Positions 930 to 61,957 of a stretch of DNA of 64,000 nucleotides are shown here, one piece after another. The DNA lies in NCBI GenBank assembly GCA_022539475.1, contig VCMS01000019.1, forward strand, positions 124,001-188,000, read 5' to 3'. Made by a program: the position numbers and the translations under genes. The notes under the pieces were generated by a model. That model saw only the letters and a program-made list of their open reading frames with translations, was not told where the DNA came from and ran no database searches. This DNA is from Gracilaria domingensis. Lineage: Eukaryota; Rhodophyta; Florideophyceae; Gracilariales; Gracilariaceae. Position 1 is the stretch's first letter, and each line of letters begins with the position of its first letter.

Positions 930-3026
930 CTACATGTACTCAAATTCATGACCGTAACTCCTGGATGAAACTCCGTTTGACATGGCAACCACTGGAACCT
1001 TTCCGTTTCCAGCGGGGGTAATGCATCGAACATGCTGATACTTGATGTCTACAATGTTCGTGCAAGCAACTCCACCAAAGGTGATTACTAGACTGGGGCT
1101 GTTTAAGAAGTGCCCGGTAATGAACACCTCTGTACCGCCAGTCTTAGGACCACGGGTTGGATGAACTGAGACGATCGAAATCGCTTTCGGCCCAGGTTCG
1201 TCCGCCTGCAGAGCTAGAACGCGGTACTTCTTCAGTTGAGGCATAACAAGCTCTCCGTACAGACCTTCAGTGAGTGACACACCACTCTGGTCAAAGAATC
1301 TATACGGTTGGCTCATCAGTGAATTTCCAGATGGATGCAGTTCCGCACGCCACACCAAACCATTAGCACCAAATGCAACCTTGCTCATCAACAGACTCGT
1401 CTTGAGAGCGCCATTGAATGTGTTCGATCGGTATTCAATCAGGCCATTTGTGGAAGACGTCATGATACCAATAGGCTTCAAGAAGCCATTGCCACTTGGT
1501 TGATCAAGATCTTTGTAGACACATTGTTTTGGATCGGTTCGACCTCGATTACGATTGGGGTGACCGTAATACGCCCCTGCAACTAACCTCAACAACTTGT
1601 CCTGCGACTCAGCGTCGGGTGCCTCCCCTGTGCAAGAGGTACTAGTAAGTCCAAATCCAGTGTTTGGACCGTTATCAGTGATGTAAGTTTGACCGTTGCT
1701 GTGTCGTACCATTCCAAAGCTGTTGCGGATACCAGTAACGTACGGTTCCACATCACCTGCGATCTTTCGAGCTACAGAAGGATCGTCATATTGGTCGTAC
1801 CGGATGTTGCCATTGAATCCTGGCTGAAGGTACGGGGCTCTAACTATTGCAGCGGAGAGCGGGTTCTCCGGAACGCCACCAATACCGTCTCCCGGTTTGC
1901 TCACTCCAGCGTTTGTAAATGAACCAATAGAAATAAGCATACTGCCATCCGCCAAGAACGCAATCGGACCTACTCCGTGATCATGATTTGATACGGGAAG
2001 ACCAGTGATGATTGTGGGTCCCTTCCTCGGACAACCGTTGCCCTCAATTTCAATCGACTCGATGTTGGCGTTATCCCATCTCATGCCCTTGTTTTCGTGA
2101 AAATGAGTGTTAACGGCGGCGAAAACCCGCGCATAAGGGTCAACAGGATTATAACCAATACCGGTAATGGAACGATCTTCTCCCATGTTGGCTCCCGTGC
2201 ACTTGGACTCAACGACCAAATCGCGGTTAACGAAGGCTACGGTGACCGTTCCAAGAAGGGAGCCCATATAGTATCGATGATCCCTTCCGAGGACAATGCA
2301 AGTGATCTCTTCAGCAATATATTCGGAGTTGTCCGGATTCTTCCATGCGTTGAGTTTGAAACGAATGGGAACATTATTTCCTTCCTGATAGGTGTAGGAT
2401 AGGCCATTCGACGTGCCCATAGAGCTTCGAACGGTGACAGTGACCGTTCCAGTTCCTCCCGGCGCCGTGCAGGTGATGCGACCACGATCGACATGCTCCA
2501 CTCCAAAAGCTTGCTGCGCTCCGAAAAACACTTGGGTGTCGCGGTAAAGATAGGCTCCGTCAATAGTAACAGTGTTACCTCCAGCAGCTGTTCCCTCTGC
2601 TGGGCCGAGAGCATCGATTCTGGGCGGCTCTGTAAGCGCGCTTCTCGGCAATACTGTTACCGACAAGGAGTCGGAGACGGTATCGCCGGTATTATCCACG
2701 ACAGTGAGCGAGACCTCTGTGGTTCCGACGGGGAGTTGCACGTCGCATTGCATAGTGTTACATACGACCTGGTTGGTGTCGACCCTCCGCCAGGTGAAGG
2801 TGGTAATTACACCGCTGACAATCGGCGGACCGGGTTCGAAGTAGTGCGAGTGCGAGCCGATGCCGTCTAGATGGACGGTTTCGAAGCCGGAGCCGTCAAT
2901 GTCGTACACGGTCTGGTCGAGACCGGGGACGGAATGGGCGCGATGGTCGAAGCCGCTATCATGGTGCTGCTGGGCGAAAGCGACGCCGAGCGCCGCGAAA
3001 AGAACAGCGAGTGTCAAATGATGCAT
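930..3026 (-). CDS. Secreted IPT/TIG and glucose/sorbosone dehydrogenase-like protein
   Basis: The 698-residue product starts with a clear signal peptide (hydrophobic 4-18, likely cut after AFA-Q). Seen domains in order: a beta-sandwich (PKD-like) region around 55-126; an IPT/TIG domain around 132-213; a beta-propeller region around 240-560 resembling soluble quinoprotein glucose/sorbosone dehydrogenases, with the SNHDHGVGPIAFLADGSMLI segment near 346-365 and the YVTGIRNSFGM segment in the middle; and a second IPT/TIG domain around 610-697 that runs to the stop. Cysteines are scattered as expected for an extracellular protein. The family oxidises sugars with PQQ in bacteria, but in eukaryotes (HHIP-like) many members are non-enzymatic binding proteins, so the substrate is unknown. 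The start codon gives the signal peptide directly. Domain family is fairly sure; activity is not. Confidence 0.85.
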   Translation of the reverse strand: MHHLTLAVLFAALGVAFAQQHHDSGFDHRAHSVPGLDQTVYDIDGSGFETVHLDGIGSHSHYFEPGPPIVSGVITTFTWRRVDTNQVVCNTMQCDVQLPVGTTEVSLTVVDNTGDTVSDSLSVTVLPRSALTEPPRIDALGPAEGTAAGGNTVTIDGAYLYRDTQVFFGAQQAFGVEHVDRGRITCTAPGGTGTVTVTVRSSMGTSNGLSYTYQEGNNVPIRFKLNAWKNPDNSEYIAEEITCIVLGRDHRYYMGSLLGTVTVAFVNRDLVVESKCTGANMGEDRSITGIGYNPVDPYARVFAAVNTHFHENKGMRWDNANIESIEIEGNGCPRKGPTIITGLPVSNHDHGVGPIAFLADGSMLISIGSFTNAGVSKPGDGIGGVPENPLSAAIVRAPYLQPGFNGNIRYDQYDDPSVARKIAGDVEPYVTGIRNSFGMVRHSNGQTYITDNGPNTGFGLTSTSCTGEAPDAESQDKLLRLVAGAYYGHPNRNRGRTDPKQCVYKDLDQPSGNGFLKPIGIMTSSTNGLIEYRSNTFNGALKTSLLMSKVAFGANGLVWRAELHPSGNSLMSQPYRFFDQSGVSLTEGLYGELVMPQLKKYRVLALQADEPGPKAISIVSVHPTRGPKTGGTEVFITGHFLNSPSLVITFGGVACTNIVDIKYQHVRCITPAGNGKVPVVAMSNGVSSRSYGHEFEYM

Positions 3027-14875: not shown

Positions 14876-16465
14876 TCAGTTAGTGGCAATCATGGCGTCC
14901 AATCTTGCTTTGAGAGCACTCAGTTGGTCCGTCACCGCCCCAATCTTATTCACCGGTTCCTGATAATCGAGCGCGACATCTGCCTTTCTTGGATTTTGCT
15001 CGAGGAGATTTCGCACGTTTGCAGCTTGAAGTAGTCTTTTAGAAGAACTTAGTTCCCCTTGCAAGCGCGAAATGAGTAAATCCTTCTCTGCGACAGATTT
15101 GTTCAACTGCGCGATCTGAGTTTCTTTCATCCCTAAAGAACGCTCCGCTCGTTGAAGGGATTTTTCCAAGTTCTGTATTCGCTTCAGAGCATTAACTAGT
15201 TCGGCAGCTGACTTATCAAAACGAGGATCTTTCTGTGGCGTGGTCGCAACAGCTGTCTTCAGAGTATCGGTCTCTTGACTAGTGAGGGTAGTACTAGAAG
15301 ATTGCGAATTCTCTGCAGGCTTTTCGGAGGTCAGGACCTCGTTTTCGAAATGCTTCGGTGTTGTTGGAGAGGAGGTTGATGTCTCCGGTTCCGTGTGGAT
15401 CAGCAAGTTGCTCTCGTCTGCAATGGTTTCTCCCACACTCTTGTCCTCAACTGCAGCGCTAACGTTCTGTCTAGTCGAGGCGCTCAACAGCTCGCTGTTT
15501 GTGTACAGAAGCTCGGCATCAGTCGGTATGTCCAGAAGCCCGCGACAGTTCCAGCTGTATAGACTTCCGTCTTCGCAGCCGGAAATCACACAAGCCGGTG
15601 TTAGTGCTGCTACGGACAACACGCTATCCCTATGTCCCTCTAGTACCTGAGTGCGGCCTTCATCTTCGCCAAGCTTCCACAGTCTGACAGTGGCATCTGT
15701 ACTGCCACTAACAGCAAAGCGGCCATCCGGGGATATGGCAACGCTCCAAACACGATATTCGTGACCCCTGAACACCGCACGTTCTTTCATGGCTACAAGA
15801 TCCCACACACGGACGGTCTTATCTCCTGCACACGATACAAGCAAGGGGGTAGGATTGGCTGTCAACGCAACGCTATGGACCCAGCTGGTGTGTCCCTTGA
15901 AAGTATGAAGCTGTGTTGACGAATCGGTGCGAACGTCCCACAAGCGTATTGTCTTATCTCGTCCGCCCGACGCGATGACGGTGACTGGGCTGTCGTCAAC
16001 ATCGGAAGAAGCTGAGGCAGCGACTGAGCGCACTTCGTATCGGTGACCGGCCAATTTGGCTGTGCATTGGCGTGTTTCAGGGTCCCAGCAGCGTACGGCG
16101 CCATCCTTTCCGGCGGTGACGACCACGGAATGGGGTGAGGTAGCTGTTACGGAGGTGAGCTCATGTCCAGTATGCGCGGCGTCGACGCTATACTGAAGCG
16201 AAGGCGCATCAGCGAGCGCATGTCGATGGAAGGCGCCTCTGGAATCTGCATGGTACAGCACATGTTCGGAAGCCAGACACAAAGAGGCGAGCGAGGGGGC
16301 TGACCACGTATCGCGCGGGTGGAAGGCTTGCGGGCTGGAGGAGGGGGCGGCAATTTGCGCCAGCGAAAACGAGTTTGGCGTGGTCTGCGCGGCAAGCAGA
16401 TTGCTCTTGGGCGCCAGGGAGAGCGCCTGGACGGGGCTCTTGGCGAAGTCGGGCATGGCGGACAC
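14876..16465 (-). CDS. WD40-repeat protein with C-terminal coiled coil
   Basis: The 529-residue product has a seven-bladed-type WD40 propeller at about 60-310, with clear GH...WD repeats (GHELTSV...VRCWD, GHRYEVRSV...IRLWD, GHTSWVHSV...VRVWD, GHEYRVWSV...VRLWK, GHRDSVLSV...LYSW). A Ser/Thr-rich linker follows (about 320-410), then a coiled coil at about 418-480 (LVNALKRIQNLEKSLQRAERSLG...). WD40 propellers are scaffolds. The propeller plus coiled coil recalls POC1-type proteins, but red algae have no centrioles, so that role is not proposed. It is divergent from the BED-finger gene across 350 bp. Confidence 0.85.
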   Translation of the reverse strand: MSAMPDFAKSPVQALSLAPKSNLLAAQTTPNSFSLAQIAAPSSSPQAFHPRDTWSAPSLASLCLASEHVLYHADSRGAFHRHALADAPSLQYSVDAAHTGHELTSVTATSPHSVVVTAGKDGAVRCWDPETRQCTAKLAGHRYEVRSVAASASSDVDDSPVTVIASGGRDKTIRLWDVRTDSSTQLHTFKGHTSWVHSVALTANPTPLLVSCAGDKTVRVWDLVAMKERAVFRGHEYRVWSVAISPDGRFAVSGSTDATVRLWKLGEDEGRTQVLEGHRDSVLSVAALTPACVISGCEDGSLYSWNCRGLLDIPTDAELLYTNSELLSASTRQNVSAAVEDKSVGETIADESNLLIHTEPETSTSSPTTPKHFENEVLTSEKPAENSQSSSTTLTSQETDTLKTAVATTPQKDPRFDKSAAELVNALKRIQNLEKSLQRAERSLGMKETQIAQLNKSVAEKDLLISRLQGELSSSKRLLQAANVRNLLEQNPRKADVALDYQEPVNKIGAVTDQLSALKARLDAMIATN

Positions 16466-16815
16466 GCGGAGCTAGGGCGCGGGCGGCGACGACGGAGGGC
16501 GCAGCGGGGAGCGACGGGCAGCGCACGCGAGAGCGGCGCGCGGGCGTAAGGGCGAGGGGGGGGGCGGCGCGCGCCAAGTGCTGACGATCATTGGCGCGCG
16601 GCGGCACGCGCTCAACGCGACGTGAGCGCCGGCTGAGCGCAATTAAACGGCGGCGCCAAATTGGCAAACGGGCGAGTAATTCGCAGCGCTGTCGTCCGTC
16701 TCCCGCAGCCGATCGATCGCGCGCGCGCTGTGACCCATTACGTCTTCCTCGGGCCAATTCATCCCATTACACGCGCGACGTTGCCGAAACGCCCGCGCTT
16801 TGAGACGTTTACACG
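16466..16815. promoter_or_regulatory. Divergent promoter with CCAAT and E2F-like motifs
   Basis: A 350-bp CpG-rich spacer separates the WD40 and BED-finger start codons. Three ATTGG/CCAAT boxes can be read (near 16590, 16662 and 16753), together with a GGCGCCAAA motif near 16651-16659 that matches the E2F-type TTTGGCGCC consensus on the other strand. No TATA box was seen. Function is inferred from position. Confidence 0.5.
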
Positions 16816-19171
16816 ATGGCTGCCGCGTCCGAAGCGCCAAAGCCGCGCGTGCTGCCGCCCGTCAAGCCGCCGCGAATCATCGTCGAGCACTTCGATGTGT
16901 CTACGTACAAGGTCGATCAGGCGCATGGCTATGTCGAGGCCGCCTGTCGCCACTGCGGCGCCACCATCAAGGGCCAGAAGAACGTCACCAGCAACTTCAT
17001 TCAGCACATGCGCCGCCGCCACGCTGACGAGTACTCCAAGTTCAGCGCCGGCGCGCAGCCGCGCCAGAAGAGGCCGAGACTGTCCCACACGCAGCGTTCG
17101 GGCGCCGTAATCGGCGCCCCCGTGGCCGCCGTGGCTCCCAAGCCCTTCCAGACCGCCGACGTGCTACTAGAGACCGCCGTGATCTCTGCCACCTTTCGCG
17201 CGGCTGTGCGCACGCCATGCGACCTGATGGATGCGCTGTCGCAGCGGATCGCGTGCCCGCTTTTCATAAAGAGGGAGGATCTCCAAAAGGGCGGCTCATC
17301 GGTTTTTCGGGCCGCCTACAACCATATTTCGAACACGCCCATTGCCAAAGGCGGCGTCATGTGCAGGGGGGCCGACATGCTACCAGTAGCAATTGCGGCA
17401 CAGCAGCATGGAAAGCCGTGCGGCGTGCTGGTGAAGAAGAGTGTATCGATTGCTAGGCGACGGCAGCTAGGCGCTGCCGAAGCCAAAGTGCTTCATGTGT
17501 CGGACGATAGCATCGAAACTGCACAGCAGCTGGCTGCCGAGCAGAACCGCACTCTGGTGGAAGTGGCGGCGGTTCTACGCGATGGGTTGGATCATGCCAT
17601 CGCAGGCTACGCTACTCTAGGGCTGGAAATACTGCAGCAGTGCGCGCACGCGCACGGCATCTTCGTGAGGGCTGGCAATGCGCCGCTGTTCGCAGGGCTG
17701 GCGGCGGTGTTGCACAGGCTGGGGCGAGGCGTGAAGCTCATCGCAGTGGCTATGCAGGGAGTGAGGATGAACGAAGACTGGAGAGCGTTTGTGAATGAGG
17801 TGGTCAAGGTGTCGTACGCCGACACGTGCGATGCGGTGAAGGCGGTGTTCGACGACTGCGACGTGATGCTACAACCGGAGGGCGCAATGGCAGTGGCTGG
17901 GGCCGTGCGATACGCGAGGAATCACTCGCTGGTGCACCAACGACTGGTGTGTCTTGGCGACTGGCCGCTGCGCGACTTTACGCAGATGAGAAGGGTGGCG
18001 GATCTGGCAGAGGTTATGGACGGCAGCCAGTGCTTTCTGCAGGTGTCGGCCAGAGTGAGCGGACTGTGGTTGGAGGACTTGATGAGGGTGCTGGGAGCCG
18101 TTCAGGTGAAGCGCGTTCGGTACGGGGGCGACTGGCCAGCGACGATTGGAATGGAGTGCAACAGCGAGCGATCGAAGGAGAGCGTGATTGCGAGCGTGGT
18201 GGAGGCTGGGTTTGGGGTGAGAGACGTGGGTGGGTGCATGGCGGAAGAGGTGAACACCGTGGAGTGGGCGGCGGCAAGGGTGGAAGAGGGCAAGACGGCG
18301 GCGGTGATACAGGTGGAAATCGAGGAGAGCCGGGACGGGGTGCGCAAGCTGCTGGGCAGGCAGCGCGCGGGGGTGCGAGTGGAGCGGGTGTCGTACCGAT
18401 ACGACGGCAGCGAGGTGGGGACGATTGTGTTCGCGGTGCACGGGGAGGAGTGGCAGGTGGCCAAGCTGGAGAGCGAGCTGATGGGCGAGGCGCTGAGCGT
18501 GAAGAGGGTGAAGCAGCGCGACAACGCGGGGGTGCGGCTGCTGGGCTACACGCTGGAGGACGACGGGGAGCGGCGCGAGTCGGAGGTGGAGCGCGCGGCG
18601 AACGTGGTGCCGGACGTGAAGGTGTACGGCGCGGCGGAGGCGGCGGCGGCTGTGGCGGCGGCGGCGGCGGCGGCGGCGGGGGTGGCCGCAGGCGTGGCGG
18701 GGGGCGTGGCGGAGGGCGTGGCGGAGGGCGTGGCGGAGGGCGTGGCAGAAGGCGTTGCGGAGGCCGTAGTTGAGGGGGTGGCGGACGAGCGGATGGAGCT
18801 TGGAAACGACGGCGAGGGGGCGACGGGCGGGTCGACGGCGACGGCGGAGGCAGCGGCGGCGGCGGCGGCGGCGGGTGGCGGCGGTGACGGCGGCGACGAC
18901 GGTGGAAACGGCAGTGGAGGCGGCGGTGGAGGCGGCGGGGCCGGGGGCGGGGGCGGGGGCGGGGGCGGGGGTGGGGGCGGAGGGCGCGGTGGACGAGGAC
19001 GGCGGCATGGCAATGACGGCGGTGGAGGCGGGCGACGGCGTGGCGCTGGGCGGCGCGCACATGGACGCGGCGGCGATGGCGGCGGCGGCTGCGGCGGCGG
19101 CGGCGGCGGTGCAGGCGGTGCAGGCGGGCGAGTCGCACGGCGCGCACGGCGCGGCGCGCGACGCGCGCTGA
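16816..19171 (+). CDS. BED zinc finger fused to a threonine-deaminase-like pseudoenzyme with ACT-like regions
   Basis: Seen domains: a BED-type zinc finger at about 35-75 (C44-x2-C47...H64-x4-H69, with TSNFIQHMRRRHADEY); a basic linker; a fold-type II PLP-enzyme domain at about 112-395 alignable end to end with biosynthetic threonine deaminase (IKRED, RRRQLGA, IAGYATLGLEILQQ, QPEGAMAVAG); and two ACT-like regions at about 405-470 and 495-580, the second with VSYRYDGSEVGTIVFAV. All PLP contacts are replaced: the Schiff-base Lys of SFKLRGAY is Val163 in SSVFRAAY, SAGNHAQG is CRGADMLP, the GGGGL phosphate loop is GNAPL, and SGANVNF is LGDWPLR. The tail is Ala/Gly-rich with GVAE repeats. The original frame stays open to 19872 but becomes Gly/Arg noise after about 18880. 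The +1 frame from there gives an Ala/Val/Glu-rich end and a stop at 19171, so an indel in the GGC tract (real or assembly) is likely. Probably a nuclear regulator. Confidence 0.8.
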
Positions 19172-19291
19172 TTGGCGCGCGTGAGATACGCGCCGGGGGC
19201 GGCGCGGCGCGGCGCGGCGCGGCGCGCGCGCGCGCGCGGCCATGGGCGCGGCGCGCGGCGCAGCGGCGCGGCGCGCGCGGCGGCCGCAACG

Positions 19292-20893
19292 ATGCGCTTC
19301 CGCGTGCAGCGCCGGCTGCCGTTCGGCGATCAGCTGCTGCTGGTGGGCAGCGCGCGCGCGCTGGGGCGCTGGGACCCCGCCGCCGCGCGCGCGTGCGAGT
19401 GGACCAGCAACCATGTGTGGACCGTCGACGTGCCGCCGCCGCCGTTCGCCGCGCCCGCGCGCTTCGAGTTCAAGTTCTGCGTGCGCGCCGCCGACGGCGC
19501 GCTCGCGTGGGAGCCCGGCCCCAACCATGTCGCGCTGCTGCCGCTCGACCCGCCGCCTCGCGCCGCGCTCGACCTGCTCTGGGGCGCCGCCGCCGACCAC
19601 CGCGTGCCGCGCCGCGCCTCCAACGGCCACGCGCCCGCGCACTACGCCGTGCTCGCCGCCAGCCCGCCGCCCACCCCCGCGCGCTCCCCCCTCCGCGCCC
19701 CCGTCAGCGACCCGCTCTCCATCGCCGCCGCCAGGCTCGCGGCGCGCGCCTCCGACGGCCACCTCCCCCCGCCGCACCTCGAGCCGCTCACCTTCCGCGT
19801 CAAGTACCGCGTCGCCGACGGCGAGTCGCTCTTCATGCTCGGCAGCATCCCCGAGCTCGGCGAGTGGAATAAAATGCATTCGCCGCCCATGACCGCCGCC
19901 GGCAACGACCTGTTCGAGCTCGTCATGCGCATCCCGCGCGAGCGCCTGCCCGACAAGTTCGAGTACAAGTACTTCACCAGGCGCGCCGACGGCAGCCGCC
20001 GCTGGGAGGCCGGCGCCAATCGCGTCGCGTGCCCGGCCGACAAGCCGCTGCCGCGCGTGTGGGACGAGCGTTGGGAGAAGGTGTGCCTGCAGTTCAGCAT
20101 CTACTACCCCGCACCGGAGGAGGCCGTCATGCACGTCACGGGAGATCTGCCGCAGATCGGCGCTTGGTTCAAGCCGGGCCCCACGCGCATGCAGCTTGGC
20201 CCGGTCGAGATGCTTGAGACCGACGTCAAGGGCAGGAAGTGGAAGCTCAGCGTATGGCACGCCCCGCAGGTGCCGTCGTTTTCTTACAGGTACATCCTCG
20301 TCAATACGCAGACCAAACACGAACTGTGGGAGCGCGAGCCCAACCGCCGCGCGCCCTTTGAGCAGGACACCCCGCTTGTCAACAGTGAACGTGTGCTGCG
20401 TGACGTCAATTTTGTGTCCGACTTGTTGTTCGATGAGGTGCCACCCAGCATGTTTATCGGTCCGTATCCGCAGAGTGTGCACGACATCGATACCATGGCA
20501 CGCGCCGGCGTCACTGCTGTGTTCAACGTGCAGACCGATGAGGATTTTCAGCATCGCGCCATTCAGTGGCCCCTTTTGTTGGAACGATACGCTCAGCATG
20601 ACATTAAGGTTGTGCGCCATCAGATCCGCGACTTTGACCGTGACTCGCTCAGAGCCAGGTTGAAAAGCGCCACAAGGGCGTTGGAACGCTTGATAAACGA
20701 GGGCAGAAAGGTTTACATTCACTGCACGGCGGGCATGGGCAGAGCGCCGGCGTGCGCTGTGTCTTACTTGTGTTGGGTAAAAGGTATGGACCTGGAGGAT
20801 GCTGTTACCTTTGTCAAGAAGCACCGCACAGTTGCTGTGCCCAACGTTCCTGTCCTTCGGGACGCGCTCAAGGAGCCCTATGGACAGCGTTAG
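19292..20893 (+). CDS. Triple-CBM20 dual-specificity glucan phosphatase (SEX4/laforin type)
   Basis: The 533-residue product has three starch-binding CBM20-like modules, at about 1-86 (LLLVGSARALGRWDP), 165-250 (LFMLGSIPELGEWNKM) and 262-360 (MHVTGDLPQIGAWFK), then a dual-specificity phosphatase at about 365-533. The phosphatase has the P-loop HCTAGMGRAP (Cys478, Arg484), the CxAGxGR signature of glucan phosphatases, and a likely general acid in RDFDRDS (447-449). Such enzymes remove phosphate from starch or glycogen so that amylases can act. Laforin has one N-terminal CBM20; SEX4 has a C-terminal CBM48. Three N-terminal CBM20s is unusual. No transit peptide is seen, which suits cytosolic floridean starch. 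The ATG at 19292 is preferred to the upstream one at 19172, whose extension is Arg/Ala noise. Confidence 0.9.
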   Translation: MRFRVQRRLPFGDQLLLVGSARALGRWDPAAARACEWTSNHVWTVDVPPPPFAAPARFEFKFCVRAADGALAWEPGPNHVALLPLDPPPRAALDLLWGAAADHRVPRRASNGHAPAHYAVLAASPPPTPARSPLRAPVSDPLSIAAARLAARASDGHLPPPHLEPLTFRVKYRVADGESLFMLGSIPELGEWNKMHSPPMTAAGNDLFELVMRIPRERLPDKFEYKYFTRRADGSRRWEAGANRVACPADKPLPRVWDERWEKVCLQFSIYYPAPEEAVMHVTGDLPQIGAWFKPGPTRMQLGPVEMLETDVKGRKWKLSVWHAPQVPSFSYRYILVNTQTKHELWEREPNRRAPFEQDTPLVNSERVLRDVNFVSDLLFDEVPPSMFIGPYPQSVHDIDTMARAGVTAVFNVQTDEDFQHRAIQWPLLLERYAQHDIKVVRHQIRDFDRDSLRARLKSATRALERLINEGRKVYIHCTAGMGRAPACAVSYLCWVKGMDLEDAVTFVKKHRTVAVPNVPVLRDALKEPYGQR

Positions 20894-21298
20894 GCGCTCC
20901 TTGTTGCAACTAGCGTGGCAGTTTTGTTTGACATAGGAGAGATAGGGGTATGTACTGTTCTTTTTTTGCTGCTGAGCTACGGCAATTTGCAAACGTAGTT
21001 GTTGATAGTGAATGCAGTGTGAAATTTCTCGTCTTTGCTTCTTGTGCGTACGTTGAGTTGTAGACAACGCGCTCGCCGCATTGCTTGCGCCGGGCGGAAG
21101 GGAATAAGAGGGATCTCGTTTTGTTTGAAGGTTTTGACCCATACGCACCATGCTCAGTGGACACTAATCGTTTACATTTGGTCAGAAAGCTTGCTCTCAT
21201 CCTCTTTGAACGCTATGGCACGCACGGTGTAGGTGAACAATACGGTACAGCGTTACTGCTTTGAATGTAACGGCAGGGCTTGGCTTGGCCAAGTCACT
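20894..21298. other. Convergent spacer, no gene recognised
   Basis: 405 bp between the 3' ends of the glucan phosphatase and the DnaJ-type zinc-finger gene. GC falls sharply compared with the upstream coding region. No feature was recognised. Confidence 0.5.
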
Positions 21299-22139: not shown

Positions 22140-23239
22140 GCATTTTTTTGAAGCCGTCGGGCAAGATTCATCGATCGTGATTCTGATGCTCGTACCAAAG
22201 GTACTACGAGCCCGAGTAGATACCTGTAGTACCTTCGAAGATACCGTAATTATATCAGGATGCACGCGTGTCTCTAGTCTAGATTCCATACAAACCCTCT
22301 ACGCACTTCATGAAGGTGCAGTGCTCTACTTTTCCTTAACATGCCAATGGCAACACATAGTTTATGTCGCTTCGGGGAGGAAGAACAGGATAAGACTTTT
22401 CTGAAAACACCAGTCAGATCAAGCGAGCACAGGGCTGATTACTCGTCATGTATATAAGCATTGGACTTATATCGATCGTCAGATTACATTCTTATCCACT
22501 CTGGAAACCAGCTCTGATCACTCAAGCTCCCTGCAGTGTTGTCGACGGCCTTAGCAAACACCGCTACTAGAACTACGAACTCTTGCAGAGCGTTTTACAA
22601 GAATCGCTCTTTAACCAAGTAACCCCCGTCTTTCTTGGCGTCTGTCCTCAGGTTTTTCTCTTCTCGTATATGGGACCATCATCTCAACAAGCAGAAGTGA
22701 AAATCTTTTGTTATCTACTTCGTTACAAAATGTAGCGCGCCACAGAAAGCAACAAGATGCACTATCATCGAAATATAAAGCCGTACTTGTCGAGAGGATG
22801 TGAACGAGAGCAATCCCGTCAGAACCACCAACGACTTCCAGCTCAATCAGTTCTCACGTCAACCCATCCCGGAATTATGGCTCCCACAATTCTCAGCGAA
22901 GCACCGTGACCACAATGCTGTTGCAAACTGCTGGCGCCCTCCGTCAACGCAACATAGTTTCTATTAAAAACTTGATTCTCGACATGTTTCTTCTTCATTA
23001 ATGATTTATGCCCTAGTCCCAACGGTCGCGAGCGGACGCCTCTGACTCAAGTTCTTAACTCACGGACGCTCACGACAAATCTCAGTGTGCTTCACCTCAC
23101 TTCCAAAAGTCCTAATTCGCTCCCCGCGGTATATAAAGCTCAACTCTCAATATGGGTTTCGCACCCATGTCTTCCTTCTTCAGCTGTTCTTTCGATCTTG
23201 GCGCATTCCGTGCCGTCGCATGGTTTCAATCCAGGTCCA
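22140..23239. promoter_or_regulatory. Divergent spacer with hairpin and TATA box
   Basis: A 10-bp perfect inverted repeat (AAGGTACTAC at 22198-22207 and GTAGTACCTT at 22226-22235) is a member of the GTACC palindrome set. A TATATAAG at 22451 and a TATATAAAG at 23131 are seen. The latter lies 109 bp upstream of the chosen start of the secreted Lys/Cys-rich gene and is a convincing core promoter. Confidence 0.5.
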
Positions 23240-25087
23240 ATGATTTCCCGTACTGAAGCCTTCTTCTTTTTGTTCTGCTTCTATGTTATTGGTATTGTTC
23301 TAACGGGCTCTCGTCCTATAGCTCCCGACGCCGAAACATTGGCTGAATCGCGATACATTTCTCCGGTTTCGTCAAGTCTTCTTCCGCCCAGTCGATTCAA
23401 TCCAAAGCCAATCTACTCGTTGGATGCTGTTGCCAGGCTTCATAATTCATCAGCGACGCTTGATGAAGTGAGCGTTCATAAACAGAATCGCAAGAAGAAG
23501 TCGAAGAAGCAGAAAGGGAAGAACAAGAAGAACAAGAAGAACAAGAAGAGCAAGAAGAACAAGAAGAACAAGAAGAGAAAGAAGAAGGGCAATGGGAAAA
23601 AGAGGAGAAGTGCTTCGCCCGACAAAGGGAAAAGGAACAACGGGAAGCCCCGTAGACATCGCCCTCGAGCTCGAAAAAGGAGCAAGTCTTCGAATTTCAA
23701 GGCATGGAAAGGATGCACGACCAAGCGATATGCATGCGGCAAAGCATGCAACGGCCGCAAGAAGAATGGCAAATGTAAAGTGTCCACGTCCTCTCCAAAG
23801 TTGTGCACCAAGAACGTGACAGAGAAGTACGCGTGTGCTGGTCGAAGAGTTCCCATGTGTAACCGGGTTGAGAAGGAGCCGGCAATCTGTACCAGGATAG
23901 AGAGGAGGACCAAGCCATGTGACAAGAAGATGGCCAATCGCAAAGAAACGTGCAAGAAGAAGCGTGTCAAGGTGAAGTGCGTGCCAAAAATTTGTGCAGC
24001 TTATGATCGCATTCCGTGTCAATACGAAACAGTCAAGCAACCCTGCCAGCGTCCAACATGGAGATGCAACGACTGTGTCGGGAAATACAGACTGAGGCAA
24101 TGTTCTAGAATTCGCACGCGCCAAGTTGAAACCGAGTGTCCTCCAGACATTGAACGTAACCCCACCACATCACTTGGGAGTCAAAAATCTTCTCCAGCGA
24201 CTTCGCCAACTGTTCCCGTATCTCCTACACCGTCGCCGACGCCCAGGCCTTTCAAGGATAGCAATGTGTTTGCTAGTAACGCTCGATGTCTCGCTTCGCT
24301 GTTTGACGAACAGGAGTGTAGATACGCCGATGTGAATTGCCAATTGTTTTCCGATTTGTTTGATTCTACAACATGTGCTGTTCAAGTGTGCCACGATTGC
24401 CGACAACTCCGCTACATGCCTGTCTCACCGGGATTGAAGAGATATTGTTCTGAACTACTGCAGTCAAGCTGCAGAACACTCTACTCTATCCATCAAGTTC
24501 CGGTTTCCAGGGTTCAAGTGCCGGCCGACCCATCGTCGCTCTCTCCAACGGCGCGAACAGCAAACGTGACATTCAATGTTGATGACGGCAAATGCTACCA
24601 CATTGAGTCCAAAAATGTATCAGCCCCCTGCAACGTTCCACTGCCCTCCAGCAAGGCATGCCTTAATGGTTGCATAGTGGGCACTTGTGACAGGCGAGTC
24701 GTAAAGGGTGGCTACTGCAGAGATAAGCTCCCAGATGCATGCAAGAAGGCAAAGAACTGTCGAAAGAGGCAAACTGAATGCTCCTACGTTGAGGAGGAAG
24801 CTGGAATGTGCGAATATCAAGTTCCTGTCGAATACGTTTGCTACAAGAAGAAGAAAGTATCCCGTCCTTGTCTGTTGGGTTCTCGGTTTTCTCTCCCCGG
24901 AAATCCAGGGTCGCCCAAAAACATTGCTAAGGCACCAGCTAGGATACTGAGGAACTTTCCGAAACTTTGTTCACGAGTTGTGAAGAAGAAATATCCATGC
25001 GGCAGTACGAAGAAGGTGCAGTGGGCGCAGTGCAAACAGAAGGGCTGCAGGAAGAAGATGTGTACCAAGAAGGTATGCAAGAAGTAA
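23240..25087 (+). CDS. Secreted lysine- and cysteine-rich protein (possible matrix protein)
   Basis: The frame is open from 23087 but the ATG at 23240 is chosen: it starts a signal peptide (MISRTEAFFFLFCFYVIGIV) and lies 109 bp downstream of TATATAAAG. The 615-residue product has, after the signal peptide, a Ser-rich stretch, a polylysine-type segment of about 60 residues (about 80-140, mostly KK/KN/KS), a first Cys-rich block (about 155-310), a PTPSPTP linker, and a second Cys-rich block to the end (KKMCTKKVCKK). The Cys blocks repeat a loose module, [KE]-[KR]-Y-[AP]-C with another Cys 5-11 residues away (TKRYACGKAC, TEKYACAGRRVPMC, KKKYPCGSTKKVQWAQC, VEYVCYKKKKVSRPC). No known family was recognised. 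A highly basic disulfide-rich secreted protein could bind the sulfated galactans of a red-algal wall (inference). Confidence 0.75.
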   Translation: MISRTEAFFFLFCFYVIGIVLTGSRPIAPDAETLAESRYISPVSSSLLPPSRFNPKPIYSLDAVARLHNSSATLDEVSVHKQNRKKKSKKQKGKNKKNKKNKKSKKNKKNKKRKKKGNGKKRRSASPDKGKRNNGKPRRHRPRARKRSKSSNFKAWKGCTTKRYACGKACNGRKKNGKCKVSTSSPKLCTKNVTEKYACAGRRVPMCNRVEKEPAICTRIERRTKPCDKKMANRKETCKKKRVKVKCVPKICAAYDRIPCQYETVKQPCQRPTWRCNDCVGKYRLRQCSRIRTRQVETECPPDIERNPTTSLGSQKSSPATSPTVPVSPTPSPTPRPFKDSNVFASNARCLASLFDEQECRYADVNCQLFSDLFDSTTCAVQVCHDCRQLRYMPVSPGLKRYCSELLQSSCRTLYSIHQVPVSRVQVPADPSSLSPTARTANVTFNVDDGKCYHIESKNVSAPCNVPLPSSKACLNGCIVGTCDRRVVKGGYCRDKLPDACKKAKNCRKRQTECSYVEEEAGMCEYQVPVEYVCYKKKKVSRPCLLGSRFSLPGNPGSPKNIAKAPARILRNFPKLCSRVVKKKYPCGSTKKVQWAQCKQKGCRKKMCTKKVCKK

Positions 25088-38768: not shown

Positions 38769-39673
38769 GGCGGAGACAGCGGAGACGGCGGAGACAGCGG
38801 GCGAGGGGGCGACGGGCAGGCGGGCGAGGGCGGCGCCATGACGGCGGGGGCGCGGGGCGCAAGCGCACGCGCAACTTTACGCGCGGAGGCGGCGGAGCAC
38901 GAACGGGAGCGGACGGCGGCGCAGCGGCGCAGGGCGGGCGCGGCGGCGGTGGCACCCGGTGCGCGGAGCGGGTGCCAAGAAGCGCCACCGGCGCGAGTGG
39001 AAGCGCGACCAAACGGCAGCGGCGGCCAAACAGCACGTGCGCCGCGGCGCGCATACAGGGGTACAGCGCTCCTCGCCGCGCCGCGCGCCGCGCGCCGCGC
39101 GCCGCGCGCCGCATGTCGTCATTGACACTTCGCCCTTCGGCGCGCCGCATGTCCCATCCGCCGCCGCGCGCGCGCGCGCCAATCGCGCGCGCACACGTCG
39201 CCACGCGGCGCGCGCGTGACATTCCCGCACCGGCGGCCACGTGCCGCGGCGCGGAGCAATTCGCCGCGGCGAGATCGCGCGCGCGCGCGCGCGCGCGCAT
39301 GGCGCCGCCACGTGGGGCGTGCTCCCGGCGTCACGCCGCGACCTGTCAGCATCGAAGCGTGGCGCGCACAATCGTACGCCCCGCTCCCGTGCCGCGCCGC
39401 ACAACCTTCGCACCCTCTCGCACCGCTTCCGACGGCTGCCCGCGCGCCCTCCCCTCCCCCCCCCCCCCCTCCAACTCCCCCCCCGCCGTCGCCGTTCTTG
39501 TCCCCGCTTCCAACCCCCTTTGCGACCTACATAATCCATAATCCACAATCCACACGCACTCGTATCTTCGCTTGTTGTCCTTGCGCCCCACACCCCCTTG
39601 TCCCCACGCCCCTACCCCCCAACCCGTGCCCCCCCCCCTCCACCCCCCCTCTCGTGCTCGTGCGATTCCCACC
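38769..39673. promoter_or_regulatory. GC-rich divergent promoter of MDR and NADPH oxidase genes
   Basis: A 905-bp spacer with extreme CpG density. It contains (GCC)/(GCGC) runs, an alternating CG tract at 39276-39298 (Z-DNA-prone), a 13-C run around 39460-39473, and C-rich pyrimidine tracts up to the oxidase start. Long frames here are low-complexity artefacts. Confidence 0.5.
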
Positions 39674-42600
39674 ATGCGCGGCTTCAGCGCTTCCGTCAAA
39701 CGCTCGCTCGCACGCGTGGAACCCGCCTTGCAGCACGATGGCTTTCAAATCACATTCATCTTCCTCTACATCCTCGTCAACATCATCTGCTTCTTCGCCA
39801 CCGCCGCCCCCGCCTGGCGCAAGGCCGCCGAAGCCGCCTTCCACGTGCAAGCCTCGTACGCCATAGCCCGAGGCGGTGGTGCCATGCTAAATCTTAACTC
39901 CGCCCTAATCATCTTCGTCGCCTCCCGCTCCCTCATGACTTTCCTCCGAGGCACCATTCTCAACATGATCGTCCCCTTCGACAAGGCCATGCCCGCCTTC
40001 CACTCCCTCGTCGGCAACGGACTAACCTGCGCCACCCTTCTGCATGTCCTCGGCCATGTTGTGCGCTACAGCGCGCTCGGCCTGTCCGGTCAGGGCTTCT
40101 ACGGCTACACCTCTCTCGCCGTCACCGGCTCCTTACTAACTGTCATCATGCTCGCCATGAAGTTCACGTCGCTCAAACGCGTGCGACGTCGAACCTTTGA
40201 GACATTCTACTGGGTCCACAGCATTGGTTTCATACTCTTCTTCTCGCTACTCATCATCCACGGCTCCCACAAGGCCACGCTTCGCTCGTGGATGTACATT
40301 ATCGCCCCACTAACCATTTACATTCTCGACCGCGCCTATCGCCTGTGGCGTGAGGAAGGATCGCGCCTGTCCATTGCGCGAGATTCCGCCGTCCTCAAGG
40401 GCTCGGACACTGTGTGTCTCCGCGTGCCGCGAACCTTCACTTACCTCGCCGGTCAGTACTGCGACATCAAGGTGCCACTCGTCAGCAACTTAGAGTGGCA
40501 CCCATTCACAATCGCCTCATCTCCACACGAGAACGAGATGCTTTTCTTCATCAAAGTCAACGGCGATTGGACCCGCAAGCTGTACGCTCTGTTCAAAGAG
40601 CGACAAGGTGGAAACTGGGAGGATGTACACATTCATCTTCGCGGTCCGTACGGCGCGCCCGCGCAACACGTCAATCAGTACGAGCACGTGGTTTGCATTA
40701 GTGGTGGAATCGGAGCCACGCCCTTTTCGTCCATCGTCAAGTACGCCCATTACTTGATTCTCAACCACACGCGGCGTGGCGCTGATTACTGTTCCAACTC
40801 TGTTTCGGCCGCCTTCACTCGCAATCAGAGCGTGCGCGGAACCCCGTCGGTGCCCGCCACACCGCCGCACAAATCAGGTTACACAAGCTCCCAGCAACGA
40901 TCGCGCGATGCCTCGAGACGCATATCGCGCAATCAGTCAACCTCAAACTTTCCAACTTTGGCACGTAACTTTTCGCGAGGCATGTCCAGAAGCGGGTCGA
41001 GGTCCATGTCGCGCTCTGCGTCTGGACGCCTTGCGCGATATGACTCTCGCGTCTCTGGTCCAGTTTCGCGCTCGGGATCGGGTCGCATAGAGCGATTCCA
41101 CTCGGGCACTCGATCCCCCTCCGCGCAGACCAATGATAGCGTTGGTGCGATAATCAAAGAACAGCGCACCAATCAACCATATGGACCAGCCATGGCGTCG
41201 ACTGCCAGCTCGTCGCAAGATTTGGATGCACTGTCGCCGACACTGTCGCCGACAGTCAACTCCTCGACCGGAAATAACTCGGCAAGCACATCTCGAGATA
41301 ACATAGCGCTTACGATTCCTGGCTCTGACGGCAGAAACGGCGACGACGATCTCAAGCGCTTCCTGGAGAGTGAGGAGGAAAGTATGTATGCGCGCCCGGA
41401 TGATTACGACGAAGAACTTGGTAACCCGGACGCGCCGATCCCTGACCGGAGGGCTACACCGGTTCAGGACGTTGCTGTCTCGCCGACCAGGAACCACCAG
41501 ACGTTCGAAATCGTCAAAGAGTACGACTCCAACCAGGGGTTGTTCGACGACGACGAGGAGGAAGTGACCAGTCCCGGCCTTGTTGAAGGTGTGGGCCGCG
41601 GCGTCGTGCATGACAACTTTGCGCTAGACCCCATGGACCTCGAAGCGGGCGAGTGGGACTACGAGAACGAGCTGATCGGAGAGGATCAGACTCCATCTAA
41701 CGCGCTCAATCTGCTTGGCATGAGCTTCGGCCCAGGGGCGATGATGAGGTACATGTATGCGGCGGAACAGAAGAAGTTGCGATCCAGCATGGCGAAGGCG
41801 TCGATGAACCTGATGGATGACGCAGTGGACGGGGCGTTCTGGCAGGATCGACTGTTATTCTATCTGCACACTGTAACGGTTAACTGGATGCTGCTCTGGG
41901 TGATGCTTGTGCGGTTTGCCATGGTTTGCATCGGTGCGATGAGTATGAACTTTCAGTTGAACCAGACAGGACTCGGGGTGTTCAAATCGCACTCTTTCAA
42001 CGTGGTTGATGTGATGTTGGCGCTGATCCTAGCGATTCCGGTGATTGGCGCGATCTTGCTTGAGATTTACATGCACGGATTGAGCAACTTCATCACGGAC
42101 GGACTTGGCAACTCGTTTGATCTGTTTGTGCTGCTACCGATTATGGCGGTGAGTGTGCTGTTGCACCTGCTGAACTTTGGCGGGGTTGGACAGGAAATCA
42201 GGCACATCTCGATGCTGCTGGTTCTGGTGGTGTGGCCGGTGCTGAGCCTGTTTCTGTTGTGGCGGATCGGACGCACGATCGGTTCTCGGGTGATTCTGGC
42301 GCAGTACTTCAAGCCGTCGCATGCGCGCACCAAGTCGCTGGACTTCATCTGGGTGAGCAAGACACACGAAGACGACACATGGTTAATCGACGAGCTGCTG
42401 CCGCTGACGGACTCGAACATTGTTCGGCTACACCGGTTCATCACGAGACATGGGGCCAAATACGAACCGTGGATGATGGACTACGAGAAGATCCCGCTGA
42501 AAACTACTTATCAACGACCGGATTGGGAGGAGGTGTTTTCCAACCTGGTGGAACGATCGAAGAGTGGTACGGTGATCGGGGTGTTCTTCTGCGGGCCGGA

Positions 42601-42862
42601 CGGGATGGCGCGCATGGTGCAGCAGGCGGCGCTGAACGCGATGCAGAAAAGCATCCAGAACGCGGTGCAGCGCGGGTACGACATGAAGCGCATGGCGCGC
42701 GACGAGGAGCCGTGCTTCGGGCGGACGCGGAGCGACCGCGGCGGGCGGCGCATGCACGGCGCGGCGTCGGGCGTGAACGCGGCGGCGGGCGACGAGCGGC
42801 AGGACCCGGCCGCTTACGGCTGCAGCGTGCGCATCTCGGTGCGCATCGAGAACTTCACTTGA
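39674..42862 (+). CDS. rboh: Respiratory burst NADPH oxidase of red-algal type
   Basis: The 1062-residue membrane protein transfers electrons from NADPH through FAD and two hemes to oxygen, producing superoxide in defence or signalling. Seen: a six-helix ferric reductase core (about 25-220) with heme-ligand histidines H110/H124 and H182/H196; the FAD motif HPFTIAS at 276-282; the first NADPH motif GGIGATPF at 344-351; a very long Ser/Asp-rich insert (about 365-715); about four extra transmembrane helices (about 730-880); then the remaining NADPH domain with FFCGPDGMARMV near the end and a C-terminal RIENFT like the usual ...NF terminus. The insertion of extra helices inside the NADPH domain is the reported peculiarity of red-algal Rboh. 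No EF-hands are seen. Upstream in-frame codons from 39572 are proline noise; the ATG at 39674 in ACCATGCGC starts the conserved part. Confidence 0.95.
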   Translation: MRGFSASVKRSLARVEPALQHDGFQITFIFLYILVNIICFFATAAPAWRKAAEAAFHVQASYAIARGGGAMLNLNSALIIFVASRSLMTFLRGTILNMIVPFDKAMPAFHSLVGNGLTCATLLHVLGHVVRYSALGLSGQGFYGYTSLAVTGSLLTVIMLAMKFTSLKRVRRRTFETFYWVHSIGFILFFSLLIIHGSHKATLRSWMYIIAPLTIYILDRAYRLWREEGSRLSIARDSAVLKGSDTVCLRVPRTFTYLAGQYCDIKVPLVSNLEWHPFTIASSPHENEMLFFIKVNGDWTRKLYALFKERQGGNWEDVHIHLRGPYGAPAQHVNQYEHVVCISGGIGATPFSSIVKYAHYLILNHTRRGADYCSNSVSAAFTRNQSVRGTPSVPATPPHKSGYTSSQQRSRDASRRISRNQSTSNFPTLARNFSRGMSRSGSRSMSRSASGRLARYDSRVSGPVSRSGSGRIERFHSGTRSPSAQTNDSVGAIIKEQRTNQPYGPAMASTASSSQDLDALSPTLSPTVNSSTGNNSASTSRDNIALTIPGSDGRNGDDDLKRFLESEEESMYARPDDYDEELGNPDAPIPDRRATPVQDVAVSPTRNHQTFEIVKEYDSNQGLFDDDEEEVTSPGLVEGVGRGVVHDNFALDPMDLEAGEWDYENELIGEDQTPSNALNLLGMSFGPGAMMRYMYAAEQKKLRSSMAKASMNLMDDAVDGAFWQDRLLFYLHTVTVNWMLLWVMLVRFAMVCIGAMSMNFQLNQTGLGVFKSHSFNVVDVMLALILAIPVIGAILLEIYMHGLSNFITDGLGNSFDLFVLLPIMAVSVLLHLLNFGGVGQEIRHISMLLVLVVWPVLSLFLLWRIGRTIGSRVILAQYFKPSHARTKSLDFIWVSKTHEDDTWLIDELLPLTDSNIVRLHRFITRHGAKYEPWMMDYEKIPLKTTYQRPDWEEVFSNLVERSKSGTVIGVFFCGPDGMARMVQQAALNAMQKSIQNAVQRGYDMKRMARDEEPCFGRTRSDRGGRRMHGAASGVNAAAGDERQDPAAYGCSVRISVRIENFT

Positions 42863-60254: not shown

Positions 60255-61957
60255 ATGGCATCGAGAGATGCTCCTGAAGGCCTTGAGGGTCCTAGCAAGA
60301 AAAGACCACGCACAAGCAAGTCTTTACAATGCAATAAAATTGGACAAGAGCACGGCGGCTTTCTTTCTCGATATAATTCTGAAAGACCGATCATTGTGGC
60401 CCTGAAGCCCATACGAAGGCTGCAGCAGAAAGTGATTGTTCGGAATTTGAGGCGAGCGGGTGCAAAGGTCCTCGATATTGAGGAAGCATGTGCACAGAGA
60501 AGGTTTCTCATAAACTCGGAGATAATCGTGGTGACTGAGGACCAGGGGAACGCACAGATTGCCGTAAGAGAAAAAATCGGTCTCATGGCAAATGCAGTCT
60601 ACGTCTCGAGAGAATGGGCAACCAAAGTTCTGACGGAGCAAGAATGGCGACCGGAAACGCAGTACATTCTGGAGCAAGCCCAAGAAGAAAGGAAACCTAC
60701 CCAGTTTTCAGCGAGTGACGAAACAGCTATTGACTTGACACACAGTGAAGGCGGACCATCAGAGGGTATACCTGTGTGGTGTCGCAGACGCCTGGACGAA
60801 AACATAGATCCAACAAAGAAGGCAGAGTTTCTGGCAAGCTTGCCGAAGTTTCTTTGCGAACGATGTACGATAACACAAGCAGTATACAAGGCACCCAACC
60901 ATCAAATCTGTGAGATTTTAGAGATTATCGCGAAGAAGAGGAGGCTGGAGCAGGCTGGCGGTTCTGTAGAATCGGCAGATATTCGCGGAAGAGCCTATCA
61001 AAGAGCCAGTGCCGCCCTCAAATGCGTTCCTTTCAAGCTGCGAACTGCTCAAGATGCGAAGACTTTGTACTCTCTTGGACCAAGAGTTCTGGCTACTGTG
61101 AAGGAATACTTGACAACTGGAGCTGTAAAAGAAGTACAGCTTATGGAAACAGATAGCAGATTGAAGGCGCTAGCAAAGTATCAGGGTGTATATGGTATAG
61201 GGTACGTAAAAGCAAGGAGATTTTACGATGAGTTGGGCGTAAGAAACATGAAACAGCTTGTTGACATGGAGACACAAGGTGATAAAGGAAAAGACAAAGC
61301 GGTTGTGTGCTATTTGAAATACGTGGAGCGTATTCAAAGCCTGTCTGCGCAAGATGCTGTCGCATTCAAGGATACCGTGTATGAGATTGCAAACAGTGGA
61401 GATGAAAATGACCTTCACCTTCGTTTCCAATTGTGCGGTGGATTTAGGCGCGAGAGAAAAACGGACACGATGTGGACATTCTGTATTGTCGACGTGAGGC
61501 GTATTCACACGATTGCAGCTCGGTGCTGAAGGAGCTTCTCACTCGACTTCAAAATGAAGGGGTAGTTGTCGAGGTGCTGAAGCAAAGCAGTGATGTTGAC
61601 GGGTGGAACGAAGTGCATTATCACTCGCAGTCATCTTCTGCAATCTTCCCTTACGCACATGACGTACTTCATGCAATTGCCAGATATAAAGGTCAGGTGT
61701 TCCGATTTGACCTAGTTGGGGTTCGAGATGCACGCGAATTCTGTTTCGCGACAATCGCATGGTCTGGTTCAACTCCATTTCAACGCGATTTGAGGTTGTG
61801 GTGCGAGCAGAAGAAGGGGTGGACGTTCAACGAGCATGGCGTATTTGAGCGTGAGAGTGGGCAAAGAGTTAAGTTAAAACCGGTACCACGCAGTGAAATG
61901 GATGTGTTTGCGGCGTTAGGATTGACGTATCGCGCTCCGTATGAGCGAAGTTGTTAA
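60255..61957 (+). CDS. Family X DNA polymerase (lambda/mu/TdT-like) with BRCT domain, frameshifted in this sequence
   Basis: The first frame (from 60255) encodes a basic N-terminus, a BRCT-like domain (about 43-140), a linker, the 8-kDa and helix-hairpin-helix parts of a Pol X enzyme (RGRAYQRASAALKCVPFKLR, YQGVYGIGYVKARRFYDELG), and GGFRRERK. It then runs out of frame at the A5 run 61457-61461. The +1 frame from there restores the catalytic NGHDVDIL motif (two metal-binding Asp) and continues with FRFDLVGV (third Asp), WSGSTPFQRDLR and FNEHGVF to a stop at 61957. One extra base in the A run would give one product of about 567 residues, so a sequencing error or a true loss-of-function allele are both possible. 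Such polymerases fill gaps in base-excision repair and end joining. The 3' end is 12 bp from the next gene's stop. Confidence 0.85.

Follow-up and report, generated by a model that had tools for sequence, protein, structure and literature searches.

In bacteria, the MocR/GabR regulators combine a PLP-enzyme-type domain with a DNA-binding domain. Their enzyme part is a fold type I aminotransferase that still binds PLP, and their DNA-binding part is a winged helix; they are a parallel to the fusion described here, and no homology is claimed. Eukaryotic BED-finger proteins such as the domesticated hAT transposases (e.g., DAYSLEEPER) and the BED-NLRs likewise carry the finger beside an unrelated partner domain. 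There the finger is paired with a transposase or an immune receptor, and in the present protein with a metabolic enzyme. The fungal repressors QutR/QA-1S, GaaX and TanX are reported to be related to AROM and are thought to be inactive, with the working hypothesis that the inducer is still bound (PMC10512348). In that account, a relative of an amino-acid-pathway enzyme has been reused in transcription control, and by analogy QutR, GaaX and TanX may be regarded as the nearest precedent in working for our protein. They differ from it in the enzyme concerned, and the model given for them has the repressor act on a Zn(II)2Cys6 activator that is a distinct protein (PMC10512348).

The likeness to IlvA, the biosynthetic threonine deaminase with two ACT-like domains (TIGR01124; structures 1tdj, 9d2q and 8y1j), consists of collinearity over ~460 residues and the same predicted fold. 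Unlike IlvA, the protein described here is without the Schiff-base lysine, has its PLP motifs replaced and a loop deleted, shows an eroded regulatory signature and has gained a BED finger. Its gene lies in a window of 64,000 nucleotides (the whole stretch of DNA that was analysed) from the red alga Gracilaria domingensis. We lean towards the view that the product is a dead threonine deaminase paralogue with a BED finger, which would act as a nuclear DNA-binding regulator with the IlvA body as its oligomer platform. The locus is laid out as follows.

16466..16815: G+C-rich spacer of 350 bp, common to the fusion gene and a divergent WD40-repeat gene (from coordinates)
16816..18597, plus strand: well-supported coding part, residues 1-594 (single open frame, third-position G+C bias)
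16939..17022, plus strand: BED zinc finger (residues 42-69 in the Pfam match to zf-BED; 32.6 bits, E 8.4e-8)
17023..17151, plus strand: linker, residues 70-112, with basic QKRPRL (read from the sequence)
17152..18543, plus strand: IlvA-like body, residues 113-576 (TIGR01124, 8y1j, 1tdj, PALP)
18598..19171, plus strand: Ala/Gly-rich low-complexity tail, in which the frame appears to change; probable end TGA 19169-19171 in frame +1

The start codon, ATG 16816, is bounded on the upstream side by an in-frame TGA (16801-16803), and in the ORF list frame 0 is open from 16816 up to 19872. Between 16816 and 18597 this frame has no stop, while base composition predicts ~18, so a chance ORF was ruled out; the five other frames have 29, 4, 8, 10 and 16 stops. 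The G+C content by codon position, determined in 150-base steps up to 18615, is 0.64-1.00 at the third position and 0.36-0.54 at the second, which is a gene-like pattern. Neutral drift was simulated from the present codons at 0.3 substitutions per site in 200 runs. It produced a mean of 6 stops, and the frame stayed free of stops in 0.5% of the runs. The 594 stop-free codons, the coding-type G+C bias and the drift simulation make a decaying pseudogene unlikely. Taken more broadly, the gene might be a functionless pseudogene or a recent chimera, as the apparent frame break in the tail and the strong divergence (22-28% identity to 51 IlvA) could suggest. We consider this very unlikely in view of the long open frame, the clear codon periodicity and a loss of residues that is uneven along the protein.

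The BED finger and the IlvA-like part are directly seen to be joined in one uninterrupted frame. The preliminary description had proposed a BED finger fused to a threonine deaminase relative, and this was confirmed, with the BED and PALP profiles both above their cut-offs, in the same frame and with no stop between them. Ahead of the IlvA-like part, Met codons occur only at M1 and M65. M138, which follows them, sits inside the PALP domain, and therefore a finger-less product started at an ATG would be truncated. An antisense ORF of 1045 aa (18014-21151) was dismissed as a gene by eye, being a G+C-rich mirror ORF. The WD40-repeat protein gene (14876-16465, minus strand) is divergent from the fusion gene, and the spacer at 16466..16815 is presumed to be a two-way promoter of both.

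Codon statistics indicated a switch from frame 0 to frame +1 in the tail, with the best position at 18874 and a range within 3 log units of 18850-18913. A single-switch model, in which the switch to frame +1 and not to +2 was considered, beat the no-switch model by 54 log units, a size which is rough because the base-by-position model was trained on 16816-18597 and the next gene. The region where the frame appears to change holds CGG-type repeats with periods of 3 and 12, and no splice donor or acceptor was found in the tail among the few consensus types scanned. An indel in the assembly or a small intron may account for the frame change, and the sequence after about residue 680 is uncertain. 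The gene end formerly placed at 19171 is retained in part: TGA 19169-19171 exists and is the probable end, but it lies in frame +1 and not in frame 0 from 16816. Given the switch at 18850-18913, the preliminary description therefore passed an indel or an intron of the G-rich tail without mentioning it.

Several other genes were noted in the window. At 120 bp past the presumed stop of the fusion gene begins a laforin/SEX4-like glucan phosphatase gene (19292-20893, plus strand), whose product combines a dual-specificity phosphatase (DSP) domain with three CBM20 stretches. SEX4/laforin proteins with several CBM20 are reported in red algae and also in ciliates and cryptophytes (PMC8703398), and laforin in protists has been tied to red-algal descent (PMC2714694). 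This neighbour thus supports a red alga as the likely source of the DNA. A ferric reductase/NADPH-oxidase-like protein is encoded at 39572-42862 (plus strand), with ~550 residues separating its FAD and NAD domains (Pfam). On the minus strand, 930-3026 contains two IPT/TIG stretches and a glucose/sorbosone dehydrogenase-like region, the latter at 20.7 bits and thus under the Pfam cut-off of 25. The ORF list alone points to a protein at 23087-25087 (plus strand) that is rich in Lys and further on in Cys, with recurring Cys pairs, and that is possibly secreted. Finally, a DNA polymerase X/lambda-like gene (60255-61957, plus strand) seems to be divided, by an intron or a frameshift, between two ORFs that overlap in different frames; in the first ORF, HHH_8 scores above and the lambda fingers below the Pfam cut-off. 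Rfam gave no match at gathering score and the tRNA search (bacterial code) no tRNA in the whole window.

The homology of the body to IlvA was observed directly and is nearly full-length. PALP (PF00291) matched residues 131-370 with E 4.8e-24 and 85.6 bits against a cut-off of 35, which assigns the protein to the fold-type II PLP family by descent. NCBIfam TIGR01124 (biosynthetic two-ACT threonine ammonia-lyase) matched with E 5.6e-37; the score of 127.5 bits does not reach the equivalog cut-off of 411.3 bits, so that the protein is a homologue and is not filed as an IlvA enzyme. With phmmer, the IlvA sequences of solved structures 8y1j, 1tdj and 9d2q gave two-piece alignments over about residues 121-540, and therefore the homology spans nearly the whole enzyme, beyond the catalytic domain. 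The collinearity with biosynthetic threonine deaminase claimed earlier is borne out by the 8y1j and 1tdj matches, which run through the regulatory half, and the threonine-deaminase homology on which that claim had been made to depend is present in the profile search. Of the three Pfam profiles named for this search, BED and PALP were found above their cut-offs, but Thr_dehydrat_C had no Pfam match at E up to 10, with HMMER filters that drop many weak matches.

Relatives were then sought in sequence collections. Among 29 stretches returned from the genome-contig collection by the IlvA-like part alone, none was related; the alignment found 550 related stretches there, the best 80 of which are bacterial by their titles. 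In viral contigs, three IlvA loci were present among the 59 stretches found with the alignment, and the single stretch found with the finger-including query was not an IlvA locus. The tblastn search of plasmids gave 90 records, all below 60% identity, and among the eight matches listed, three are annotated as ilvA and five have no feature under the match. No PHROGs family was matched, and tblastn revealed no second copy in the 64-kb window.

Residue conservation was assessed with 83 IlvA sequences, namely E. coli IlvA and 82 of the 83 recovered locus ORFs, one short ORF having been dropped. These contain 150 near-invariant columns (at least 95% conserved), of which the protein keeps 53. The changes around the cofactor site are located as follows.

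17302..17304, plus strand: Val163, where E. coli IlvA has the Schiff-base lysine K62 (present in 83/83 IlvA)
17362..17385, plus strand: CRGADMLP (183-190) in place of SAGNHAQG, 1/9 near-invariant columns kept
17674..17688, plus strand: GNAPL (287-291) in place of GGGGL, 2/5 near-invariant columns kept
17740..17745, plus strand: deletion site between residues 309 and 310, 7/7 near-invariant columns absent
17953..17973, plus strand: LGDWPLR (380-386) where IlvA has the SGANVN motif, 1/5 near-invariant columns (316-321) kept

The loss of the cofactor site is thus directly visible. It had been stated that all four PLP motifs are replaced, and the alignment gave the same result: K62 by V163, SAGNHAQG by the CRGADMLP region, GGGGL by GNAPL and SGANVNF by GDWPLRDF. 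The structural motifs described as kept were also recovered, that is, IKRED and, of IAGYATLGLEIL, the IAG, T and E. The loop deletion was absent from the preliminary description. It removes some 25-30 residues, corresponding to about 211-241 of E. coli IlvA, with an exact edge that varies with the alignment, and from its place we read the deleted stretch as the probable active-site loop.

The PLP motifs and the deleted loop together keep 6/32 near-invariant residues, compared with 35/66 elsewhere in the catalytic domain (Fisher p = 0.002); the contrast with the core weakens when the loop is left out (6/25, p = 0.018 vs 35/66) or counted among the other columns (6/25 vs 35/73, p = 0.059), and all these p-values are post hoc, because, although the preliminary description supplied the motifs, we drew their edges and defined the loop with the pattern of kept columns already in view. 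The argument for enzyme death relies on the missing lysine and the motifs more than on the conservation contrast. With Val163 at the position of the Schiff-base lysine, the protein is very probably a pseudoenzyme. A changed enzyme working without PLP would be in line with the partly conserved core of the catalytic domain (35/66 residues). We regard it as highly improbable, since the loop is deleted, the cofactor-motif residues are mostly replaced and no alternative catalytic set was recognised.

The structure was predicted with AlphaFold2 from an alignment whose rows were 50 of the 83 locus IlvA, none covering the BED region. With these 50 rows the mean pLDDT was 73.4; the prediction from the single sequence gave no usable fold, with a mean pLDDT of 33. 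In ten-residue blocks, residues 131-380 reached 84-98, with the exception of one block at 76. The linker at 471-490 had 47-58, and the BED region (41-70) had 41-45, which means that the finger is effectively unmodelled. The best PDB matches of the model were 8y1j, 9d2q and 1tdj (E 1e-32 to 6e-28, TM by target 0.64-0.68), a match to IlvA that is partly circular because the alignment rows are themselves IlvA. A structure prediction had been proposed earlier for residues 110-590; the present one returned an IlvA-like fold for the body, with support that is partly circular. The uneven loss of residues would fit a protein that has lost catalysis and retained its fold.

The regulatory half contains two ACT-like regions.

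18028..18225, plus strand: ACT-like region 1 (residues ~405-470), with Tyr436 among the 5/20 near-invariant residues kept; block pLDDT 75-92 (401-470)
18301..18495, plus strand: ACT-like region 2 (residues ~496-560), with Tyr527-Arg528 and Gly531 kept; 7/27 near-invariant residues kept, block pLDDT 66-82 (491-560)

Both regions had been said to remain. This is upheld for the fold, which is predicted to persist, but not for the residues, as 12/52 near-invariant ones survive (ACT1 5/20, linker 0/5, ACT2 7/27). Erosion has gone further in the regulatory half than in the catalytic domain outside the PLP motifs and the loop (12/52 vs 35/66, Fisher p = 0.001; p = 0.005 with the deleted loop counted in the catalytic rest). 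The ACT glycine loops (G350 to L417, G445 to D507), R362 (to V429; conserved in 89% of aligned IlvA) and the linker residues H418/R420 (to N480/V482) are lost. Kept residues include Tyr436 and Tyr527, the counterparts of E. coli Tyr369 and Tyr465 in the alignment, as well as R528, G531 and G535. By motif and spacing, these tyrosines match Tyr423 and Tyr526 of yeast Ilv1, and Ilv1 R416 and H480 map to E. coli R362 and H418. The yeast tyrosines are named as responsible for Ile recognition, and substitutions of R416 and H480 are reported to lower Ile control (PMC8904041).

On this basis, it can be asked whether the ACT-like half still binds isoleucine/valine and thereby makes DNA binding depend on the level of branched-chain amino acids. 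The tyrosines kept at the two effector sites, their neighbours R528, G531 and G535 and the reported role of the yeast counterparts speak for it. We nevertheless consider it unlikely, because few regulatory residues are kept and both Gly loops, R362 and H418/R420 are gone; moreover, at a keep rate of 12/52 both tyrosines would be retained by chance with a probability of ~5%. For the same losses, classical Ile/Val feedback binding appears doubtful, and an altered ligand for the IlvA-derived body is possible. The amino-acid sensor of the preliminary description is therefore weakly supported, by the two tyrosines, and amino-acid sensing as such is unproven and partly contradicted by the eroded residues.

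The N-terminal finger agrees with the textbook BED finger described before (C44, C47, H64, H69). Its zf-BED (PF02892) score of 32.6 bits exceeds the cut-off of 20.6, and the BED ligand pattern CX2C...HX3-5H is present as CRHC-X16-HMRRRH. The finger had no significant match among PDB sequences; the best was 2ct5, a BED protein, with E 0.42. BED fingers can serve protein contacts too. By the NLS consensus, the QKRPRL of the linker is a putative NLS-like stretch. Algal IlvA is expected in the plastid, and no transit peptide was apparent by eye at the N-terminus. The BED finger would occupy the spot where algal IlvA is expected to bear its transit peptide, and the finger with the basic stretch would stand in place of plastid targeting.

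A dead paralogue could also enter mixed oligomers and tune an active threonine deaminase, the finger being a protein-contact module. The predicted retention of the fold together with the loss of the cofactor site would suit such a role, and dead-subunit activators are known, as in the case of the trypanosomatid deoxyhypusine synthase paralogue (PMC3663545). We find this explanation quite improbable, as it leaves the finger and the basic linker without a clear role, and a transit peptide for reaching the plastid enzyme is not apparent.

In the regulator that we favour, the protein would most likely act in the nucleus and the BED finger would bind DNA. The IlvA-derived body would gather several fingers as an oligomer and might offer a reshaped pocket or surface to a ligand or partner, perhaps as a repurposed ligand module. 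Together, the lost catalysis, the retained fold of the catalytic domain and the DNA-binding module that precedes it are consistent with an enzyme-made regulator. From these sequence features we infer DNA binding, nuclear location, oligomerisation and regulation. We judge the architecture to be real and unusual and the death of the enzyme to be well supported, and the regulator is what these features suggest. A more specific form of this reading, which we put forward tentatively, is a eukaryotic zinc-finger transcription factor, here in an alga, whose ligand domain would be a complete allosteric biosynthetic enzyme that no longer catalyses its reaction, with an amino-acid-pathway metabolite acting directly on DNA binding.

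Literature on BED with threonine deaminase/dehydratase, on red algae and on pseudoenzyme regulators did not report the fusion, which is a weak absence as few subscription journals were covered. Regulators related to dead enzymes are already known; a BED finger and a complete allosteric amino-acid enzyme in a single chain were not met in the literature covered. If the protein is metabolite-responsive, it would offer a one-protein and directly testable path from amino-acid level to algal gene expression. It would also be a clear case of evolution from enzyme to regulator, in the course of which the protein may have moved from the plastid to the nucleus.
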